From the IMG/VR virus record IMGVR_UViG_3300025087_000192, positions 1 through 39,083 of that record: DNA of 39,083 nucleotides. One strand, given 5' to 3'. Under the pieces are notes generated by a model that made no database searches, had not been told where the DNA came from, and worked only from the letters and a program-made list of their open reading frames with translations. Numbering within the stretch: the stretch's first letter is position 1; each line of letters opens with the position of its first letter. This DNA comes from a virus. Below are positions 2,720-39,083 of this stretch, piece after piece. Both the position numbers and the translations under genes were made by a program.

Positions 2720-2910
2720 TTCATCTCCATGAATTTCTTAAAGTCGTCAGTTAATTCTTCGTACCCCCAAGAAACAACACCGCCTTTGCAAATTTGTTTT
2801 AGCACAATTCTAAGGACATCTTCGGTGCAGTTCGTTCTTGGTGTTTTATGGTAGTCCTCGCCAATCCTATTCGATATTTTAAGTAACAACCTATCAACAG
2901 TATTTTTCAT
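2716..2910 (-). CDS. Hypothetical 64-residue protein
   Basis: A small charged protein (MKNTVDRLLLKISNRIG start, FKKFMEMK end), coupled by ATGA overlaps on both sides (2910-2907 and 2719-2716). The two overlaps are the main evidence for translation. No domain recognised. Confidence 0.6.
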   Translation of the reverse strand: MKNTVDRLLLKISNRIGEDYHKTPRTNCTEDVLRIVLKQICKGGVVSWGYEELTDDFKKFMEMK

Positions 2911-3473
2911 TCCCCCACCCTCCCCTTTTCTAACAAGTCCACCCCGTGGGTAATAATTGTTAAACGCATTTTATCCTTGGCGGCGTAGGCGGCGTAGGTG
3001 GCGTAGGTGGCGTAGGTGGCGGCGTTGGCGGCGTAGGTGGCGTAGGTGGCGTAGGTGGCGGCGTTGGCGGCGGCGTTGGCGGCGGCGTTGGCGGCGGCGT
3101 TGGCGGCGTAGGTGGCGGCGTTGGCGGCGGCGTTGGCGGCGGCGTCGTTGGCGGCCTTGGCGGCCTTGGTGGCGGCGTTAGAAGGATTTTTTAAATACTC
3201 TTTAGCCGCTTCAATCGCTTTCCGTGGTCTATTGTCATCCGGGTACTTATCCTCGTATATTTTAATAACCTGTTCTGCCGCAAAAACTGCATATTGAATC
3301 TTCTGCGCATGCGTCATAGCATGAGTTACAACCCAATTAGCCCAATCCCAATGGTCGTTTTTGAGTAACGCATCAATAAACGGCTTTAATTCTCTGTCCG
3401 TTTGACGTTGGCTCCACTTATACCCATACACACAAGCTAATTGTTCTTTTAACCACTCATTTGTAATTTTCAT
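2907..3473 (-). CDS. Phage protein of the putative-immunity-like type with Ala-rich repeat tail
   Basis: One hundred and eighty-eight residues from ATG 3473, which overlaps the upstream stop as ATGA; the longer in-frame extension lacks this signal. Residues 1-90 (NEWLKEQLACVYGYKWSQ, WANWVVTHAMTHAQKIQYAV, RPRKAIEAAKEYLKNP) form a helical domain I recall from many phage and bacterial proteins annotated as putative immunity protein. It is followed by about 70 residues of AAN/ATY repeats and a short unique C-terminus (KDKMRLTIITHG). In that family the Ala-rich tail varies between relatives. Function unproven. Confidence 0.7.
   Translation of the reverse strand: MKITNEWLKEQLACVYGYKWSQRQTDRELKPFIDALLKNDHWDWANWVVTHAMTHAQKIQYAVFAAEQVIKIYEDKYPDDNRPRKAIEAAKEYLKNPSNAATKAAKAANDAAANAAANAATYAANAAANAAANAAANAATYATYATYAANAATYATYATYAAYAAKDKMRLTIITHGVDLLEKGRVGE
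2979..3178 (-). repeat. GC-rich in-frame array coding AAN / ATY repeats
   Basis: Repeated ggc-ggc-gtt and ggc-gta-ggt triplets on the plus strand encode Ala-Ala-Asn and Ala-Thr-Tyr on the minus strand. The array keeps frame throughout and is far more GC-rich than its flanks. The plus-strand reading of Arg/Trp is a shadow. Confidence 0.9.
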
Positions 3474-4048
3474 TTTGTACCCTTTTCTAACTCGGCGTTG
3501 ATAATTCGTTGCGCTTGACCAATAGAGCAAGAATATTCCCCAGCTTCCTCTGCGTGATGGAATCCAACATGACCGCAACTATCCAATACATCTGAAATTC
3601 TCTCAAGAACCTTCCTATGCTCCTCCCGAAGGGCTTGCTCACGCTGGATATATTTATCTTCCAACTGTTTCAATTTGATTGAGAAGTGTCCACGCTTAAC
3701 ATTGTCAACCAACTCAATAAACCTACAATTATCTAGGGTATACCCTATGCTTGTTTCTTTACGGTCAAGACTTGGCTTCTTCATGCTTATTGCGTTATCT
3801 CTTTGCCATAATGAATACACCTCGTCTTTGGTTAAGGTAAATTCCAGACCCTTATAAAGATAATGTTTTGAGTTTGTGCCGAATATTCTGTTCTTAGCCG
3901 AATACCAATGCTTTATCCAACGAAACCTCTCAAAGTATTCCTTTGATCTAAATACACGCTCTTTTTTCTTCTCTTTTGTAAGGCCCCCATACCACTTTTT
4001 ATTTCTTTTAGACTTTTTCTCCTTTGCTTCCGCTCTTTTATCGCTCAT
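3470..4048 (-). CDS. HNH-like DNA-binding/endonuclease protein fused to HLKVL module
   Basis: One hundred and ninety-two residues from ATG 4048 behind AAGGAG. The N-terminus is Lys/Arg rich. The core (KHWYSAKNRIFG, LTKDEVYSLWQRDNA, KPSLDRKETSIGYTLDNCRF) matches phage HNH-related proteins with the pattern LWxRDxA...PSxDR...Y..DNCRFIE, likely DNA-binding and possibly nicking. The last 60 residues (HRKVLERISDVL ... IINAELEKG) are the same C-terminal module as in 295-582. It looks like a fusion of a mobile-type nuclease core and a local module. Whether it cuts DNA cannot be judged. Confidence 0.65.
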   Translation of the reverse strand: MSDKRAEAKEKKSKRNKKWYGGLTKEKKKERVFRSKEYFERFRWIKHWYSAKNRIFGTNSKHYLYKGLEFTLTKDEVYSLWQRDNAISMKKPSLDRKETSIGYTLDNCRFIELVDNVKRGHFSIKLKQLEDKYIQREQALREEHRKVLERISDVLDSCGHVGFHHAEEAGEYSCSIGQAQRIINAELEKGTK

Positions 4049-5103: not shown

Positions 5104-5228
5104 TATTTCCAGTCCTTTCTTTTACAGGCGTGGCTTGGGAAAGCGTCCTTTGTTTCATACAGCTTTCCGCATAACTTGCACGTTACCAGCCTTGTTGTTG
5201 GCTTGCGCTTTCCGCTTATCATTGTCAT
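5103..5228 (-). CDS. 41-residue zinc-finger-like microprotein
   Basis: ATG 5228 overlaps the RecT stop as ATGA. The product has CKLCGKLYETKDAF followed by SHAC, a C-x2-C ... H-x2-C arrangement as in small single zinc fingers, on a basic background. It directly follows recT and may bind nucleic acid; that role is inferred. Confidence 0.6.
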   Translation of the reverse strand: MTMISGKRKPTTRLVTCKLCGKLYETKDAFPSHACKRKDWK

Positions 5229-6394
5229 TCCTTCCAGATTTCTTCCGGTGTCTGTGGCTTTCCGGCACTCAAAACCTCAACCCTCTTGGCGTTGTACTGC
5301 GTCTTCCCTCGGAATTCTTTCGTTGTGATTTCAGTGAACTTCAGCTCCGTGCCATGCACTCCGCCTGTTTCATCACTCCCAAACATCGAAACTGCGATCT
5401 CACCTAAATCCTGCGTTAAAACAATATAATCATTTCCTGTAAACACCTTACCATCCAGTGCCCTTGTGCGTGTAAATGGGACTATGCCTATTAAAGCCCC
5501 TACAATCTCGTTTAAACCGCTTGTTTGGCTTGTCGGGGCTTTGGTCGGTTCTGGCGAAATTGGTGCAGTAACGGGCGATTCCGCTTGTTTCTGTGGCATT
5601 CCTGCAGGCTTTTCGACAGATGGTTGAACAATCTCGGCATTAACGGCAGTGTTCCAGTCTGTTTTGTCTGGAACGTCCGTCATTTTTGGCGCAATATCCA
5701 TTTTGACGGTTTCATCCGTGCTTATCCGCTGTTGAACCTCAACAGAAAGAGGAAGCAACTTGCAAAGTCTTTTGACGGCTGTTTTCTTCCTCATTTCATC
5801 CGTCCATTTAACCCATGGACTATATTCGCTTGTCCCTGCCTTGCTTGAGTTCTGAACCTTCTGTACTTCTTCCTTATTTAGAAAGACAAAAACTTTTTCA
5901 TTCGCCATCATATTTTTTGCGATAGCGTATACACCAACAAACTCCCCACGATCACCGCTTGCCGGGATATGGCGCAAAATAGGATTTAACCCCTGTTCAT
6001 ACTGGAACTGGTCTTTTTCAAACACGCACTCGGCATTCAAAATGCTTGCCTCTTTTGATCTGTTGACCAACTCAACAAGCCCCTTGTATCCAACGATCAA
6101 CTGGACTTCTTTAACGCCCTTATTAACAAACGGTACATAATAAACATGACCGATTGCCCCCGGCGTCAATCCAATCTGAACCGTCTGAAGAACGGCGGCA
6201 ACTAAGCTGTTTTGACTACACCCCATCAACGCAGGAGATTGCATTACAATATTTGTTACCGCAAGAAACCTTTCCGGGCTTATTGTGTTATTTAAAGCCC
6301 GAACGATCAAATGTTCGTTTTTCTTGAGACAATCCTCTATCGTAACTAACTGCGTTCCTGCCACCTGTTTTTTTACTTCTGCCAAATTACTCAT
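5225..6394 (-). CDS. recT: RecT-family single-strand annealing protein
   Basis: Three hundred and eighty-nine residues. RecT proteins anneal complementary single strands during phage recombination, working with a partner exonuclease. Family features are clear: SPALMGCSQNSLVAAVLQT, IGLTPGAIGHVYYVPF, LIVGYKGLVELVNRS, and the later WVKWTDEMRKKTAVKRL. The core ends near residue 240; the Pro/Thr-rich stretch and the C-terminal 90 residues extend beyond the usual RecT length and may bind a partner. The start overlaps the exonuclease gene by 8 bases, giving the usual exonuclease-annealase order. Confidence 0.93.
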   Translation of the reverse strand: MSNLAEVKKQVAGTQLVTIEDCLKKNEHLIVRALNNTISPERFLAVTNIVMQSPALMGCSQNSLVAAVLQTVQIGLTPGAIGHVYYVPFVNKGVKEVQLIVGYKGLVELVNRSKEASILNAECVFEKDQFQYEQGLNPILRHIPASGDRGEFVGVYAIAKNMMANEKVFVFLNKEEVQKVQNSSKAGTSEYSPWVKWTDEMRKKTAVKRLCKLLPLSVEVQQRISTDETVKMDIAPKMTDVPDKTDWNTAVNAEIVQPSVEKPAGMPQKQAESPVTAPISPEPTKAPTSQTSGLNEIVGALIGIVPFTRTRALDGKVFTGNDYIVLTQDLGEIAVSMFGSDETGGVHGTELKFTEITTKEFRGKTQYNAKRVEVLSAGKPQTPEEIWKE

Positions 6395-7244
6395 CTTTTT
6401 TCTCCTTGTTTAAAGTTATCTTTAACATCTTCCCGTCTTTTTTGGTAACTTGAAAAGTTGATCCTTTAACCTGAATCCACTTTGCCACATACTGGCTGGT
6501 ACGAATCCCGGCATTTTCTCCGATAACCTGTTTTAATTTCGCCTCCAGCTCGTCTTTTGTGGCATCCAACGCTTTAATATTAGCCTTCGTCTGCTGTAAC
6601 AGGGCGATAGATGCGTTCATTTCTTCGACCGCCTGTATAAGTTCGCCTGACTTCGGATAAATATCAACAATACCGGGATTATCTGCACCGATTGCAAACG
6701 GCGGAGTTTTGTCCTGCACCATTTTCCAAAATTCAGCGACTTTTGTTTCGATCATGGCGTAAAGCTCTGCATCAAATTTCAGATACTTTTCGACTGTGCG
6801 TTGGCCACCGCACAAACAATATACCCAAGCATCTTCTCTTTTAGATAACCCCATCTGCGCCGTCACCTGCGCTATGACCTTCGGCGGTATCTCGTCCGGG
6901 TTTTCCCACTTTTTCCATGACTGAGCCCCAACTGTCTTGATTTCGACAATGGTCTTCGTGCCTACTATAATATTATCCAACTCGCAGGAAAAAAACGGCA
7001 TTGTCGCATGATGATAACGCTGTTTATACGCCATCAACTTGACGCCGTGTTTTTCGGCAAAATCATCTGACACAATGCGCTCCAGCTTTTTCCCCCATTG
7101 CACCGACTCATTCCCGGACAAATCATCCGCCGGAATTGTCCCCGTTTTAATGCCCCACAATTTTAATGGAGTCATGTACTCATCAATCCCCAAAATCGCC
7201 GGGACTTCGCTTGCCCCAATTATATTCATCCGATCAATTTCCAT
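6387..7244 (-). CDS. yqaJ: YqaJ-type recombination exonuclease
   Basis: Two hundred and eighty-five residues from ATG 7244 (GGAGATAAAA site; an in-frame TTG 12 bases upstream is less likely). YqaJ/lambda-Exo-like nucleases resect double-strand ends to feed the annealing protein. Seen here: GASEVPAILGIDEY near residue 10, WGKKLERIV, the metal-binding ELD and the VEIKT motif about 13 residues later, then a Gln-rich helix (VIAQVTAQMGL) and WVYCLCGG. A C-terminal coiled coil (about 200-245) follows the nuclease core. Coupled to recT. Confidence 0.92.
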   Translation of the reverse strand: MEIDRMNIIGASEVPAILGIDEYMTPLKLWGIKTGTIPADDLSGNESVQWGKKLERIVSDDFAEKHGVKLMAYKQRYHHATMPFFSCELDNIIVGTKTIVEIKTVGAQSWKKWENPDEIPPKVIAQVTAQMGLSKREDAWVYCLCGGQRTVEKYLKFDAELYAMIETKVAEFWKMVQDKTPPFAIGADNPGIVDIYPKSGELIQAVEEMNASIALLQQTKANIKALDATKDELEAKLKQVIGENAGIRTSQYVAKWIQVKGSTFQVTKKDGKMLKITLNKEKKDE

Positions 7245-8055
7245 TTTTATCTCCAATCTGTTTTTCTAAATCTTTTCTCGTACCCTGCCAAACAACTTTA
7301 GCATCCTTCCCAGCGTGCAATCTCCAAATAGTTCCATCAAAAGAAGGAACTAGTCCGCGTTCCCATAATTTCTGGTTAATTCCAAAATTATTTTTATATT
7401 TGATGTCGAAGTATGTTGATATCGAAGCCCCGACCGAATCCCTGACCGAAGCCCAGACCGAATCCCAGACCGAATCCCCGACCGAAGCCCCGACCGAATC
7501 CCTGACCGAAGCCAAGACCGAAGCCCCGACCGAAGCCCTGACCGAATCCGCGACCGAATCCCTGACCGAATCCCAGACCGAAGCCAAGACCGAAGCCCCG
7601 ACCGAATCCCTGACCGAAGCCCCGACCGAATCCCAGACCGAATCCCCGACCGAATCCCTGACCGAAGCCCAGACTTTTAATAACAACAAGTCCCTTTTGG
7701 AAACTTTCTTCGCTTTTAGGTTTGTGAGCGGATTAAAAATCTTTTTGACAATCAATGGACCAACGATAGTCTTAAAGTTCACCTCTCGGCAGAACTTCTC
7801 TATTAAACATTTATCGTCTGTTGTGTTCATCTGATCTACTTCAAACAATCCAGTCAATGGGCTATATTCGTACTTGTTCACCTCGTCGGCTTTATTGCCC
7901 GTAAATCCGTAGAACGACGATATAGATGAATGACTGTCCGCTGTTTCGACCATATTAAACGCAGGGTCTTTCTTTAACATAGCCTGACGTTGTTTCCAAT
8001 CGAAATAATACGGATTGCCGTTACCATCTGATATTAAGCTAAAAAATTTACACAT
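7234..8055 (-). CDS. Phage MCKFF-type protein with SV tetrapeptide repeats
   Basis: Two hundred and seventy-three residues. The N-terminal 125 (MCKFFSLISDGNGNPYYFDW, DSHSSISSFYGF, DEVNKYEYSPLTG, LNTTDD-like QMNTTDDKCLIEKFC) match a conserved but uncharacterised phage protein. About 80 residues of (A/D)SV(W/R/G/L) repeats follow, then a C-terminal region (WERGLVPSFDGTIWRLHAGK). Repeats of this kind in relatives vary in number, so the segment may be a length-variable rod. The end overlaps the exonuclease start by 11 bases. Function unknown. Confidence 0.75.
   Translation of the reverse strand: MCKFFSLISDGNGNPYYFDWKQRQAMLKKDPAFNMVETADSHSSISSFYGFTGNKADEVNKYEYSPLTGLFEVDQMNTTDDKCLIEKFCREVNFKTIVGPLIVKKIFNPLTNLKAKKVSKRDLLLLKVWASVRDSVGDSVWDSVGASVRDSVGASVLASVWDSVRDSVADSVRASVGASVLASVRDSVGASVGDSVWDSVWASVRDSVGASISTYFDIKYKNNFGINQKLWERGLVPSFDGTIWRLHAGKDAKVVWQGTRKDLEKQIGDKNGN
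7429..7672 (-). repeat. 12-bp in-frame array coding SV repeats
   Basis: About 20 consecutive units of the form gaccgaa(t/g)cc-c-n(g) on the plus strand encode Ser-Val-x-(A/D) on the minus strand. Variation falls mainly on the codon for W/R/G/L/A and on the A/D choice. The plus-strand frame reading T-E-S/A repeats is a shadow. Confidence 0.92.
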
Positions 8056-12123: not shown

Positions 12124-12481
12124 GGACATTAAAAAATTAGAAGGAAGCCGGTTACCGGTGGCGAAGCCTATCTGGCAGATGTCAGATGAGGTTGGGGCGA
12201 CAAGGGAGCTGTTGAAGAATAAGATAGCGCAGTCGCATAAGATTGAGGATATGGTTGTAAAGGCGGCGCATGATGGATTGAATGCAACGACGAAGGTCTT
12301 TTTTGAAGGGGCGGAGGTAGCGGAAGTACCGGATTACGGAGTTAGGCATAAGTATTGGAGGGACATTTTGATAATGAAGAAGTGGCTGGCGAAGACGGAC
12401 GTTAATGTAGACGTGCGTAATCTTACAATAAATGCACAAGAAGAAGAGATCCTGCGGCGATATTCAAATGAAAACACTTGA
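12107..12481 (+). CDS. terS: Terminase small subunit (probable)
   Basis: One hundred and twenty-four residues from ATG 12107 (GGTGG site; an in-frame GTG at 12098 is possible). It lies immediately before TerL and has the composition of a small terminase: LLKNKIAQSHKIEDMVVKAA, then GVRHKYWRDILIMKKWLA and a charged C-terminus (QEEEILRRY). TerS recognises the packaging site and regulates the large subunit. The assignment rests on position and pattern. Overlaps terL by 14 bases. Confidence 0.7.
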   Translation: MKTLHKDIKKLEGSRLPVAKPIWQMSDEVGATRELLKNKIAQSHKIEDMVVKAAHDGLNATTKVFFEGAEVAEVPDYGVRHKYWRDILIMKKWLAKTDVNVDVRNLTINAQEEEILRRYSNENT

Positions 12482-15095
12482 AGATTTCCTACCAGAAGAA
12501 GATTTATCCCGGTACAAACTTTTAACCAATAAAGATGCGAAGCGGATATTTATACAGGAAGCGGCGAAGAGGTATTTTCCGTTGATGGTGCATATTTTAG
12601 GGTATCGGGATACTGGTGCGTTTCACGTGGAACAGATGCAGGAGATCGCCGAGGTTAAGGGGATGGGAGATTACTCATCCCGGCGTCTTTGGTTATGGGC
12701 AAGAGGACATTTCAAGGCGGTCGATGAAAATGAACCTGTTCCGACGCCATTAGGATTTGTTCGTCATGGAGATATAAAGGTTGGAGATGAAGTTTTTTCT
12801 CCAAATGGGAAAGCAATAAAAGTAATTGGTCGTTCAGAAACTTTTATAAATTCTGAATGTTATAAAATTACGTTTAGCGACGGATATTCTGTTGTTGTTT
12901 CTGGGGATCATCTTTGGTGTGTTGGTAGAAAAAGTCGTCGTAGGGTGTCTGGAACGAACAAAAGGCAATATCGAGATTGGTCTATAAAAACAACCGAGGA
13001 ATTACATCGGCACGATCATAAGCAAGACAATAGATATTCCGTTCCTCTTTCTTCCCCAGTAAAAGGATACTACAAATTCCTCCCCGTTCATCCATATGTT
13101 CTTGGTGCTTGGCTTGGGGATGGTTCATCGGCAAGTGGTGGTTTTACTTGCGACGACCAAGAGATAATTGATAATATCTCGAAATGTGGATATATTGTTT
13201 CTCGGTATCCGTCCGACTATGCTTATGGTATAAAAAAATTGAAGGTAAAATTAAGGGGATTAGGAGTTCTATCGAATAAACATATCCCCATGCGGTATAT
13301 GATAGCTCCAGAGAACGATAGAATGGAATTGCTTAATGGATTAATGGATACTGATGGAACTTGTGATTCAAGAGGGACAGCAAATTTCTGTAATAAGAGT
13401 AAACGTCTTGCTACTGATTTTTTCAGGCTTGCCAATTCTTTGGGATTATGTGCATCAATCAGAAGGCATAAATCAAAATATAAGGGTGAAGATTATTATT
13501 TTTTCCAAGTATCTTTTCAGGCATATGGGAATATATTTAAATTAAAAAGAAAGCAAGATAGGACGAGAGTAAATAAAAAAAGAGTTTTCAGAAGCAAGTA
13601 CATAATTTCCGTTGAGAAAACAGACACTATCCCTACAAATTGCATAAAAGTAGAATCCAAAGATGGTCTTTATCTCATAGGAGATCGGTATACCGCAACA
13701 CACAACACCAGTTTAATAACAGAAGCTCATTCGGTATGGCTTGTTGTGAACAATCCGAACATAAGGATCTTGCTTGTATCGAATACGATAGGGATAGCGG
13801 AGAAGATTCTAAGGAATATAAAGTCACATTTCATGGTGAATGCGGAGTTCCGGTACTTTTTTGCTGAATTCTGTCCACAACCGAATACAGCCGGGAAGAT
13901 AGAGTTTGGCACGACTGAATATTTCACAACGCCAGCCCGTTTTAAATCGCTTAAAGAGCCGACGATGATGGTCGCCGGTATTGGCACTAACCTGACAGGG
14001 TTGCACTTCGATTATGAGAAGATAGACGACCTTGTAACAAAGGACTCGACAGCAAATGATACTCAAATCCAGACTTCCAAAGATTATTACTCTACCCTCC
14101 GGCAACTCTTTGACAATCCAAGCTATCCGAAGGAAGACGTTATCGGGACGATATACCATTTCAATGATTTATACTGTGACTTTAGAAAGTCCAGACGAAT
14201 GGCTGAGTCTTTTATCCCAGTTCGCACGGAAGAAGGGATTAGTTTCCCGGAAAGGTTCAGCGACGAAAGCCTTAATCGAATAATGATTGATGTAGGCCCG
14301 TATGAATATTCGACGCAGTATATGCTTAACCCGGTAAATCCAGCTGATGCAAAGTTTAAGCAGGAATGGATTAAATATTACGATACGTTGCCCGAGGGGC
14401 TGGCTGAATACATAACATGCGATCCGGCGAGTACGCAGAAGAAGAAATCAGATTTTACAGTAATAATGAGGTGGGGCGTTGATTCTGAAGGAAATCATTA
14501 TCTGCTTGAAGGCGTTCGTGATAAGCTCACGGCGTTTCAACGAGTAGATAAACTGTTTATGCTCGTCAAGAACGCAAGAAACCTTAAATGGGTGAAATAT
14601 GAAGTTTTGGGCGGAAGGCATGGTGATCTTGAGGTTATAAGGGAACGGCAAATTAAAGAGCAGGTGTTCTTTAACATCCAAGAAACAAAAGGCACGGCGA
14701 CAAGTAAGGCTGATAGAATTGAACAACGTCTTGTTCCTGCGTACCATGCTGGGGTGATTAACTGGCCTCGACAGATGATAACAAAATCCGTGTATGATGG
14801 GAATACTCATGACTTCATTCAAGATTTTCTTTTAGAGTTTTTACAATTTCCGTTTAGCGAGCATGATGATATTTTAGACTGTCAGTCGCAAATATTCGAA
14901 GACCCTAAAATGATAATCAAAGGGTCGAAGACATCCGTCAAGAAATCTGGAAAACTAGTAACCGCAGATGATTGGGAAAGGTTTTACAGTAATTTAGAAA
15001 AAGAGAAAAATATGTTTAAACACTTGACGAATGAACAGTTTAGGGATAGAAGGTTAGTTAGGAAGTTTAAAAGCATTGTCAAGAAAGGGCTGTAA
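12468..15095 (+). CDS. terL: Terminase large subunit precursor with intein
   Basis: The precursor is 875 residues; removing the intein (residues 84-413) gives a 545-residue TerL. The motor cuts and pumps DNA into the procapsid. The spliced P-loop region reads ARGHFK-TSLITEA, followed by a Walker-B-like stretch (LTGLHFDYEKIDDLV). Nuclease-domain acidic residues occur in EYITCDPAST and EHDDILDCQ. ATG 12468 is chosen for its good N-terminus; an upstream in-frame ATG (12432) would add 12 odd residues. Unspliced protein should be inactive because the insertion splits the P-loop. Confidence 0.92.
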   Translation: MKTLEDFLPEEDLSRYKLLTNKDAKRIFIQEAAKRYFPLMVHILGYRDTGAFHVEQMQEIAEVKGMGDYSSRRLWLWARGHFKAVDENEPVPTPLGFVRHGDIKVGDEVFSPNGKAIKVIGRSETFINSECYKITFSDGYSVVVSGDHLWCVGRKSRRRVSGTNKRQYRDWSIKTTEELHRHDHKQDNRYSVPLSSPVKGYYKFLPVHPYVLGAWLGDGSSASGGFTCDDQEIIDNISKCGYIVSRYPSDYAYGIKKLKVKLRGLGVLSNKHIPMRYMIAPENDRMELLNGLMDTDGTCDSRGTANFCNKSKRLATDFFRLANSLGLCASIRRHKSKYKGEDYYFFQVSFQAYGNIFKLKRKQDRTRVNKKRVFRSKYIISVEKTDTIPTNCIKVESKDGLYLIGDRYTATHNTSLITEAHSVWLVVNNPNIRILLVSNTIGIAEKILRNIKSHFMVNAEFRYFFAEFCPQPNTAGKIEFGTTEYFTTPARFKSLKEPTMMVAGIGTNLTGLHFDYEKIDDLVTKDSTANDTQIQTSKDYYSTLRQLFDNPSYPKEDVIGTIYHFNDLYCDFRKSRRMAESFIPVRTEEGISFPERFSDESLNRIMIDVGPYEYSTQYMLNPVNPADAKFKQEWIKYYDTLPEGLAEYITCDPASTQKKKSDFTVIMRWGVDSEGNHYLLEGVRDKLTAFQRVDKLFMLVKNARNLKWVKYEVLGGRHGDLEVIRERQIKEQVFFNIQETKGTATSKADRIEQRLVPAYHAGVINWPRQMITKSVYDGNTHDFIQDFLLEFLQFPFSEHDDILDCQSQIFEDPKMIIKGSKTSVKKSGKLVTADDWERFYSNLEKEKNMFKHLTNEQFRDRRLVRKFKSIVKKGL
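12717..13706 (+). mobile_element. Class 3-type intein with LAGLIDADG homing endonuclease
   Basis: A 330-residue insertion between Lys and Thr of the TerL P-loop. It starts AVDENEPVPTPLGF (Ala instead of Cys/Ser at position 1) and ends ATHN before Thr+1. Block B reads SGDHLWC (His65, Trp67), block F has NCIKVESKDG (Cys309), block G has Thr328-His329-Asn330. Trp/Cys/Thr at these positions is the WCT signature of class 3 inteins, which use the block F Cys as first nucleophile. Both endonuclease motifs keep their Asp: LGAWLGDG (135) and LLNGLMDTDG (213). It is visibly more AT-rich than the flanking terL, consistent with separate acquisition. Confidence 0.93.
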
Positions 15096-15329: not shown

Positions 15330-17390
15330 ATGCCGAATCTAAACGCCGACGAGATAAGCTCTTGGAAGGGCAGGATACAAAGAGGCGAGGCGTTTCAAGC
15401 GAAGAATCATAAGGCGTGGCGTGATGCAGTTGATTTATATAATTGTGAATTCTTTCAAAAAAATCTTGGATATGACCCAGAGCGTGTTGAAGTAAATTTT
15501 GCGAATTGGTACATTGATAATTTAGTAGCCCTCGTTTATTTCAGAGACCCTTTCATTTTTGTAAAATCCCGTAACGATAAATACACCACATTTGCCGAAA
15601 CAATGGAGCAGGTCATTAACTACCATTGGATCGAAATGGGGTTAAAGCAAGAGAACAAGAGGGCAATTCGTTCGGCGTTTATGATGCCTCCGGGATGGGT
15701 TAAGGTCGGATACACCGCCGAGCTTGGACAGGACGTTGCAAAGATCGACGAGATAAAAGAGAAGGGAGCAATCCAATTATTAAAAGACGCTATAAAGGGA
15801 GTCTTCTCAAAAGAAAAAAAAGAATTAACCCCAGAAGAGCAAGGGCATCTGAATTATTTTATTAAAGAGGAAAATATTTTTGCGACGTGGATTCCGTCGT
15901 GGAATATTATAATGCCAGAAGGGTATCATGTTATTGAAAAGATGCCCTGGATTTGCGAGATTGAAGATGTGAATATGCTCGACTTCTTGGCGAATCCGAC
16001 GTACAAGAATAAAACGGATTTAAAGTCGGATAGACGCATAGAGCCAACTAATGATGGCGGACGTGAAATATCAAAGGTTGGATATGCTGATTCTGATGCA
16101 ACAAACGAAGACAATGATGTTATCCGTCTTTACCATATTTGGGATAGGCGTGGACAAAGAAGGATGACTCTTTCTATGCGGTCAAATGAGCCTCATTCCG
16201 AAGGGAAGTGGCCGTATGATATGGAAGGTTTCCCGTATCTTCCACTTGCGTTTGATGAGTCGTTGCCAACAGACCAGACATCAAACCCTTACCCACCAAA
16301 CTGCCTCAAGTCAATAATGCCGCAGATCATCGAAAAAAGCAATATGCGGACGCAAATGACTAAGTGGAGAAAACGGGCTTCAGCGTTTATTATGTGCCAA
16401 AAGGGTCTTTTAACTGAAGACGACATGCAACAGATAACTGAAACAGAAGGTCTTCAGGTCGTTAATATCTCCAATATTCAGGCTGTTCAGATGCAACAGG
16501 GCCCGTCATTGCCGAATGAAGTATTTGCGGTTGAAGCGGCCATTGATAAGGATTTACAGCAAGGAACAAGCATGGGGCAAATGATGTTTGCACCTATGCC
16601 GGGGCAAAGGACTGCCACACAAGCAGGGTTAGCCCAACAGGGCATGGAATTACATGCACAGAGCCGAGTGGACTGCATAGAGGACTTTACGGTCAGGGAA
16701 GCCCGTTGTATTGCACAGTTGGCATGGCAGTTCTACGATAAGAAGAAGGTCGAAGAGATTATTGGAATGCCGGTATCTGAAAATATGTGGCCGACGCTTC
16801 CAAAAGAACCAAAAGAACGCCGTAGGGTTATTCAAGCCGAGTTACAGTTTAAGATTGATGCCGGCTCGACTGCCGCTCCGAAGGATGAGCTTGTTGACAG
16901 AAAGCAGTATCTTGATGCGCTGTCGATTATTTCTAGTATTGCTCCGGGACGGCTGAAAGAAGAGGAAGTCGTCTTAGGCGTATTGAAGAAATTCAAATTT
17001 AACCGTGAGGTCGACAGGCTTGTTTACACGAATGACGATGAAGAGCGTGTAGCGGCACAGCAAGAGAATCAGTTATTGAATAGCGATGTTCCACAGGTTG
17101 TTTCTCCGAATGAGAACCATAAGATTCATATGGAGGAGCATATCAAGGGCGGACAGCCTACTCAAGTTATGGATATACACCTTACAGATCATGGCAAGTT
17201 TCTTGGCGTGAGTTTGACGGGTGATAAGAGTGGTAGCGGTTCAAACACACCACAGGCGGGCGATAAACGCCCGCCAATGAAATCTTCTAACCCTGAAATT
17301 GTTCGTCAAGGGAACACTTCAGCGGGGGATATCAATCAGAGCGCACAGAATTTAGGGGCTGGTACGGGCGCACCCGAAAGGATGACGTAA
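15330..17390 (+). CDS. Portal protein
   Basis: Six hundred and eighty-six residues behind a GGAG site. The portal is the dodecameric ring at the capsid vertex through which DNA passes. Position (after TerL, before scaffold and capsid), size and sequence (WRDAVDLYNCEFF, RSAFMMPPGWVKVGY, PYPPNCLKSIMPQIIEKSN, then the Gln-rich TATQAGLAQQG helix) fit phage portals. The C-terminal 120 residues are low-complexity and charged, as is common. Confidence 0.88.
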   Translation: MPNLNADEISSWKGRIQRGEAFQAKNHKAWRDAVDLYNCEFFQKNLGYDPERVEVNFANWYIDNLVALVYFRDPFIFVKSRNDKYTTFAETMEQVINYHWIEMGLKQENKRAIRSAFMMPPGWVKVGYTAELGQDVAKIDEIKEKGAIQLLKDAIKGVFSKEKKELTPEEQGHLNYFIKEENIFATWIPSWNIIMPEGYHVIEKMPWICEIEDVNMLDFLANPTYKNKTDLKSDRRIEPTNDGGREISKVGYADSDATNEDNDVIRLYHIWDRRGQRRMTLSMRSNEPHSEGKWPYDMEGFPYLPLAFDESLPTDQTSNPYPPNCLKSIMPQIIEKSNMRTQMTKWRKRASAFIMCQKGLLTEDDMQQITETEGLQVVNISNIQAVQMQQGPSLPNEVFAVEAAIDKDLQQGTSMGQMMFAPMPGQRTATQAGLAQQGMELHAQSRVDCIEDFTVREARCIAQLAWQFYDKKKVEEIIGMPVSENMWPTLPKEPKERRRVIQAELQFKIDAGSTAAPKDELVDRKQYLDALSIISSIAPGRLKEEEVVLGVLKKFKFNREVDRLVYTNDDEERVAAQQENQLLNSDVPQVVSPNENHKIHMEEHIKGGQPTQVMDIHLTDHGKFLGVSLTGDKSGSGSNTPQAGDKRPPMKSSNPEIVRQGNTSAGDINQSAQNLGAGTGAPERMT

Positions 17391-18976: not shown

Positions 18977-19972
18977 ATGTCGTACTTATCAACGACTGTA
19001 GCTTGGGACACAATTCGGAGCATTACGCACCCGAAGGTGGCCCAGAAGATTGCCGATAACATTACCGGCAAGATCCCACTTCTTTATTTTCTGAATCGCA
19101 TGGGGAATAAAGAGATGGAGAATGGCGGTGTCAACTATATGTTGCCCGTCTTTAAAGAGCTGGCGAGTGCCCAGTTTTATACCGGGTTGACTTCGTTGTC
19201 TTCCAATGAAGCCGATCCATTCACGACCGCTATCTTCGAGCGCAAACAGGTGACTGTTCCGGTTGTGGCATCTGGAACAAAGATGTTGCAGAATTCAGGG
19301 AACAATCCTGAAGCCATTATCAATTACATGGCGGCGATTGTCGAAGCGGCTGAAGAATCAATGAAGAGCGCATTAGCTGGCTCTGCGAACGGCATCTTCT
19401 CGACGAACACCGAGAGTGATGTTGGTATTACAGGTTTACAGAACATCGTTTCTGATACTCCGACAACGACCGTCAGCGGTGGTCTTGACCCTGCGACGTA
19501 TTCGTTCTGGCGGAATTATCAGGGAGCTTGTGCAACGAATTTCAGCACGAGCGGACGTTCTTCGTTTGACACGGCGTTTTACTCTTGCGTCCGTGGAGAT
19601 GAATCGCCGACCATTGTCGTTACGACACAGGCGGCTTATATTAACCTCAACACCGTATTGACGGGGACGATTAGCTTCAATCAGAACAACGTCGCTCCTA
19701 AAGTCAATTATGGCGATCTGGCGTTTGAACATATCTATTGGCATGGCGTTCCTGTCATGTTCGATAGTTATTGTCCTGCTAACCATGCGTATTTTCTGAA
19801 CTTGAAGTATCTGAAGTTTATGGTGCATGGTGAAAGGGACTTGTCGTTTAGGGATTGGATTACTCCCGGCGATCAGGATGCACTGGTGGCTCGTATGTAT
19901 TGGGCTGGAAACCTCGTTTGTTCAAACAGGGCTCGTCAGGGTGTTATTTCGACGAACCTCGATACCTATTAA
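18977..19972 (+). CDS. Major capsid protein
   Basis: Three hundred and thirty-one residues behind CAGGAG. Position and pattern fit an HK97-fold coat protein: an N-terminal helical arm, GGVNYMLPVFKELAS, the long helix AIINYMAAIVEAAEESM, and a C-terminal strand region (FRDWITPGDQDALVARMYW, GNLVCSNRARQGVI). The coding sequence is more GC-rich than its neighbours, as often for highly expressed coat genes. Confidence 0.9.
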   Translation: MSYLSTTVAWDTIRSITHPKVAQKIADNITGKIPLLYFLNRMGNKEMENGGVNYMLPVFKELASAQFYTGLTSLSSNEADPFTTAIFERKQVTVPVVASGTKMLQNSGNNPEAIINYMAAIVEAAEESMKSALAGSANGIFSTNTESDVGITGLQNIVSDTPTTTVSGGLDPATYSFWRNYQGACATNFSTSGRSSFDTAFYSCVRGDESPTIVVTTQAAYINLNTVLTGTISFNQNNVAPKVNYGDLAFEHIYWHGVPVMFDSYCPANHAYFLNLKYLKFMVHGERDLSFRDWITPGDQDALVARMYWAGNLVCSNRARQGVISTNLDTY

Positions 19973-38917: not shown

Positions 38918-39083
38918 AAAATTTGAACGGGGGTTTTAGTGAGCTTTTCTCCGTACAGGTTGGCTCCGTACAGGTTGGCTCCGGACAGGTTGGCTCCGGA
39001 CAGGTCGGCTCCGTACAGGTTGGCTCCGTACAGGTTGGCTCCGGACAGGTTGGCTCCGGACAGGTCGGCTCCGTACAGGTTGG
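38918..39083. repeat. Contig-end overlap, right copy with variant array
   Basis: Bases 38918-39043 repeat 1-126. From the seventh 15-bp unit onward the order differs from the left copy: here units 5-8 repeat units 1-4 exactly, a 60-bp super-unit. This fits an array one super-unit longer than the left copy shows, or a mixed population. Confidence 0.85.

Follow-up and report, generated by a model that had tools for sequence, protein, structure and literature searches.

A probable class 3 intein with a LAGLIDADG homing endonuclease in the terminase P-loop of an uncultured phage

Results

The terminase gene and its surroundings

The virus record IMGVR_UViG_3300025087_000192 was analysed over its whole stretch of 39,083 bases, here called the window. 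On the plus strand, a single open reading frame of 887 amino acids (ORF 12432-15095) encodes the large terminase subunit (TerL) together with an insert. The parts on either side of the insert, the exteins, were identified as TerL by PHROG 38 (E 7.5e-71, matched in the C-extein) and by the NCBIfam model termin_lrg_T7 (E 7.9e-14). The N-extein (12432-12716, plus strand) counts 95 amino acids and ends at the P-loop lysine in the sequence WARGHFK; an alternative start codon for the gene is possible at ATG 12468. The C-extein (13707-15095, plus strand) counts 462 amino acids plus the stop codon, and its first residue is the P-loop threonine, which is also the +1 nucleophile of the insert. Downstream of TerL, ORF 15330-17390 occupies the usual place of the portal gene, with no match in a search against the PHROGs, and a major head protein is encoded at 18977-19972 (PHROG 9953, E 4.6e-50). 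Over 7386 bases, the insert included, the window is matched without a difference by another IMG/VR contig, 3300002097_000262, which possibly stems from a related sample.

The last 166 bases of the window (38918-39083) repeat the start of the record (1-216 region), exactly for 126 bases. The repeated ends lie within an array of 15-base units, of which the minus strand reads as a pentapeptide-repeat protein. This probably means that the genome is circular or terminally redundant and that the record was closed within the repeat. Another array, of 12/24-base units (CGAATCCCCGAC), was located at 7423-7674 within the minus-strand ORF 7234-8055, next to a RecE-like (6387-7256) and a RecT-like gene (5225-6394). 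Arrays of short units were also present at 2977-3179 and 1478-1650, one of them within the minus-strand ORF 2907-3578 (PHROG 38757) and one consisting of CCCGTT units.

Insertion site

The insert spans positions 12717-13706 on the plus strand, equal to residues 96-425 of the product. It is a stop-free run of 330 codons from AVDENEP to YTATHN, and separates the P-loop lysine and threonine, with WARGHFK before it and TSLITE after it. In viral contigs with related terminases the same region is uninterrupted, reading WSRGFFK-TTLITE in L004/L136 (58% TerL identity) and WSRGFFK-TSLITE in L137 (59% TerL identity). Both extein parts of the window align with these homologues, the C-extein along its full length with the 58% identical one. 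The initial annotation had placed the insert between the lysine and threonine of the ATPase P-loop and suggested a search for TerL homologues with and without it; the two uninterrupted proteins set the boundary exactly there. At the DNA level, 30 of the 42 bases flanking the site are the same as in the nearest empty homologue, L137, a low number, and we propose no recognition sequence.

Kelley et al. (2016, PMC5050341) named the corresponding site of mycobacteriophages TerL1-a and called it a classic P-loop insertion. In the window, the insert likewise lies between the Walker A lysine and threonine of a large terminase subunit and, judged from the sequence, the site is of the same kind. The host protein matches PHROG 38 and termin_lrg_T7, and a Pfam search of the exteins gave no match to Terminase_1, the family of the mycobacteriophage TerL1-a examples.

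Splicing residues

Class 3 inteins are defined by the lack of a nucleophile at position A1, the first residue, and by a tryptophan, a cysteine and a threonine (WCT) at positions B:12, F:4 and G:5 (Kelley et al. 2016, PMC5050341). With its boundary set by the empty-site homologues, the insert starts with Ala1 and thus not with cysteine, serine or threonine. Its N-terminal splicing region, comprising blocks A and B (12717-12944, plus strand), was matched by phmmer and hmmsearch to residues 1-75/76 of the structures 6bs8, 6rix and 6riy, and includes Cys48 (12858-12860) as well as His65 (12909-12911) and Trp67 (12915-12917) of block B. The C-terminal splicing region with blocks F and G (13602-13706, plus strand) matches, in the alignment, the C-terminal block of the 6bs8 and 6rix inteins. 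It carries Cys309 in block F (13641-13643) and closes the insert with Thr328-His329-Asn330 (13698-13706), followed by Thr(+1).

By sequence, the insert's best matches in the PDB were two class 3 DnaB inteins, that of Mycobacterium smegmatis (6bs8) and that of M. chimaera (6rix and 6riy), with E 5.8e-15 by phmmer and E 3.5e-38 by profile; His65 and Trp67 carry identical numbers in them. Trp67, Cys309 and Thr328 align with the WCT residues of these inteins and with those of 80 out of 80 IMG/VR relatives, and neither comparison placed a different residue at the W or C position. All residues listed in the initial annotation were recovered at their places in the translation, and its reading of the set as that of a class 3 intein stands. 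Five class 1 phage inteins (L023, L146-L149) served as controls. These start with cysteine and have neither the tryptophan at B:12 nor the block F cysteine; since most of them end in THN, it is W and C that discriminate, and not the threonine alone. In a Pfam search the nuclease alone was recognised in the insert, with no match to a splicing domain, so that the class assignment had to come from alignment and structure.

Predicted fold and nuclease domain

An AlphaFold2 model of the intein, built from 40 rows (the window and IMG/VR sequences), reached a mean pLDDT of 94.7 and a pTM of 0.91. It shows a HINT fold like that of solved class 3 inteins. In VIA-align comparisons, all 125 of 125 residues of the M. 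smegmatis DnaB intein 6bs8 were superposed with an rmsd of 1.2 Å (Z 22.4), against a Z of 18.8 for the class 1 intein gp41-1. Among mini-inteins, the predicted fold is thus nearest to the class 3 DnaB inteins. PI-SceI, a full-length intein with HINT and LAGLIDADG parts, gave a Z of 27.5 with 3.5 Å over 325 residues.

The LAGLIDADG endonuclease region lies between blocks B and F at 13092-13553 (plus strand, ends approximate). It was recognised by Pfam LAGLIDADG_3 (4.6e-06) and Hom_end (2e-04), on the second half, and by a profile match to PI-SceI (profile positions 126-275). Two motifs were found, with the catalytic residues Asp135 (13119-13121) and Asp213 (13353-13355), conserved in 96 and 98 out of 99 aligned inteins respectively; both are intact, as had been annotated. 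Four relatives carry a substitution at these positions, D135N in L047, L084 and L093 and D213N in L014, and keep all splicing residues. Their nucleases are probably dead.

Relatives

A tblastn search found relatives of the intein in 753 phage records. Of 600 stretches of viral contigs that matched a pattern, at least 583 encode one, and such numbers argue against the insert being a product of chance. The alignment used here contains 99 inteins: 80 from IMG/VR, 18 from named phages and the one of the window. In these, W is present in 96, C in 98 and T in 98. Most of the aligned IMG/VR relatives are located at a boundary of the same type, with lysine before Ala1 and serine or threonine after the asparagine, often in a TerL P-loop. 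Scans with the single protein for close relatives returned only the identical contig from viral_contigs and none from genome_contigs; at the sensitivity of such a scan, close kin is rare in both collections.

In a tree of the splicing blocks, the window grouped with the inteins L026-L031, whose host P-loops in TerL are of the type LWARE/SREHYK before serine. The class 3-like set was split from the five class 1 controls, a small outgroup, with a support of 78. Similar TerL inserts are present in phage RaK2, where the insert is also described in PMC5259590, and in Vibrio phage VCO139. The VCO139 intein (L019, 1501-2514) at a TerL K/T site has Ala1, the block F cysteine and THN, and lacks the tryptophan at B:12 (SEDHINI); from its sequence, it is possibly a class 3 variant without the W of WCT.

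Among the closest known counterparts is the TerL intein of phage Eureka gp8 (NC_041850), which has the same K/T site and the motifs ALDVETP, HLW, VCIQID and PTHN before threonine. Eureka and the window share the P-loop location, Ala1, W, C, THN, a LAGLIDADG domain and a length of about 330 amino acids. The inteins are 37% identical, and the phage of the window is uncultured with a TerL that is not close to a mycobacteriophage TerL. Going by its site, we read the Eureka copy as belonging to the TerL1-a set. The DnaB inteins of M. smegmatis (DnaBi1, 6bs8) and M. chimaera (DnaB1, 6rix and 6riy) resemble the window in His65, Trp67, Cys48, the F:4 cysteine and THN, but are mini-inteins without a nuclease and are hosted by DnaB. 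Class 3 splicing was shown for the MP-Catera Gp206 intein (cited in PMC3196547). Its assumed homologue in phage Astraea, gp208, is 33% identical to the intein of the window and shares W, C and THN, whereas its host protein is annotated as exonuclease/HNH and is not a TerL.

Mobility

The nearest intein observed, L026 on IMG/VR contig 3300007345_007618, is 51% identical over its whole length and occupies the same P-loop site (WAREHGK before serine, its +1 residue), yet the C-exteins of the two terminases are only 23% identical. Conversely, the nearest terminases, at 58-59% identity, have no intein. The histories of the intein and of its host gene do not match. The GC3 of the intein is 0.267, compared with 0.505 in the N-extein and 0.445 in the C-extein, and all 149 in-frame windows of intein length from other genes lie above it, with values of 0.279 or more. 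This lowest value is not far above that of the intein, and the low GC3 may partly result from amino-acid content. The mismatch in identity, the empty homologues and the GC3 fit acquisition by homing, and suggest that the intein was gained in this way.

Discussion

The insert is very probably, at about 95%, a class 3 intein of full length that carries a LAGLIDADG homing endonuclease, located between the lysine and threonine of the TerL P-loop. Splicing is expected to follow the route of other class 3 inteins. Cys309 of block F, aided by His65 and Thr328 and with Trp67 packing, would attack the Lys-Ala1 bond to form a branched thioester, from which the acyl group would be transferred to the P-loop Thr(+1). 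Cyclisation of Asn330 and an acyl shift would then leave the exteins joined by a peptide bond, with an intact P-loop reading GHFKTSL. In the precursor the Walker A lysine and threonine are separated by 330 residues, which should leave the ATPase inactive: unspliced TerL would have no intact ATP site and could not power packaging. The split P-loop makes it a strong inference that packaging depends on splicing. Most likely, the nuclease cleaves TerL genes that lack the insert at the K/T site, after which repair would copy the intein in.

Some class 1 inteins carry a cysteine at F:4 (Tori and Perler, PMC3196547) and THN is found in phage inteins of class 1 as well, so the block F cysteine might be incidental to a class 1-like intein in which Thr(+1) attacks directly, or the insert might belong to class 1 or class 2 proper. 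We consider this very unlikely. The alanine at residue 1 leaves no class 1 nucleophile, the B:12 tryptophan is missing from the class 1 controls, and class 2 inteins have been reported in KlbA only (PMC3196547). Moreover, the model is closest in fold, among mini-inteins, to the class 3 DnaB inteins, and in the tree the intein falls within a group of class 3 relatives (split support 78, five class 1 controls). Smaller still are the chances of a decayed intein that has lost the ability to splice, in which case the phage would be defective and its terminase non-functional. One known example of a class 3 pseudo-intein is Arsp-FB24 Arth_1007, which lacks the F:4 cysteine (PMC3196547). In the window, by contrast, the splicing residues and both nuclease aspartates are all intact in a frame that is open throughout, the C-extein still aligns along its length with a 58% identical homologue, and a second, identical contig exists.

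The class 3 intein in a TerL P-loop that the initial annotation had described is thus retained; what that description left unsaid is that the arrangement is common and already published (TerL1-a, Kelley et al. 2016), so that the window adds a member to a known group.

In M. smegmatis DnaBi1, a disulfide between Cys48 and Cys118 reversibly blocks splicing under oxidative stress, and Cys48 was called non-conserved (PMC6195587). The intein of the window also has a cysteine at alignment position 48, and Cys309 is the counterpart of Cys118. By analogy, a Cys48-Cys309 pair might act as a redox switch on genome packaging, a proposal that we regard as doubtful. If the pair forms, an oxidised cell would keep TerL as unspliced precursor and packaging would be delayed. 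Of the 99 aligned inteins, 57 have Cys48 and 57 have it together with the block F cysteine, and such a switch could be widespread among phage inteins.

The window represents one more uncultured phage in a large known group, and is a further illustration that an intein need not share the history of its terminase gene. It is of use as a clean case, in which the boundaries are exact, two homologues have an empty site and the model is confident. The shared Cys48 and block F cysteine raise the question whether the redox control described for a single mycobacterial helicase extends to the splicing of phage class 3 inteins in general.
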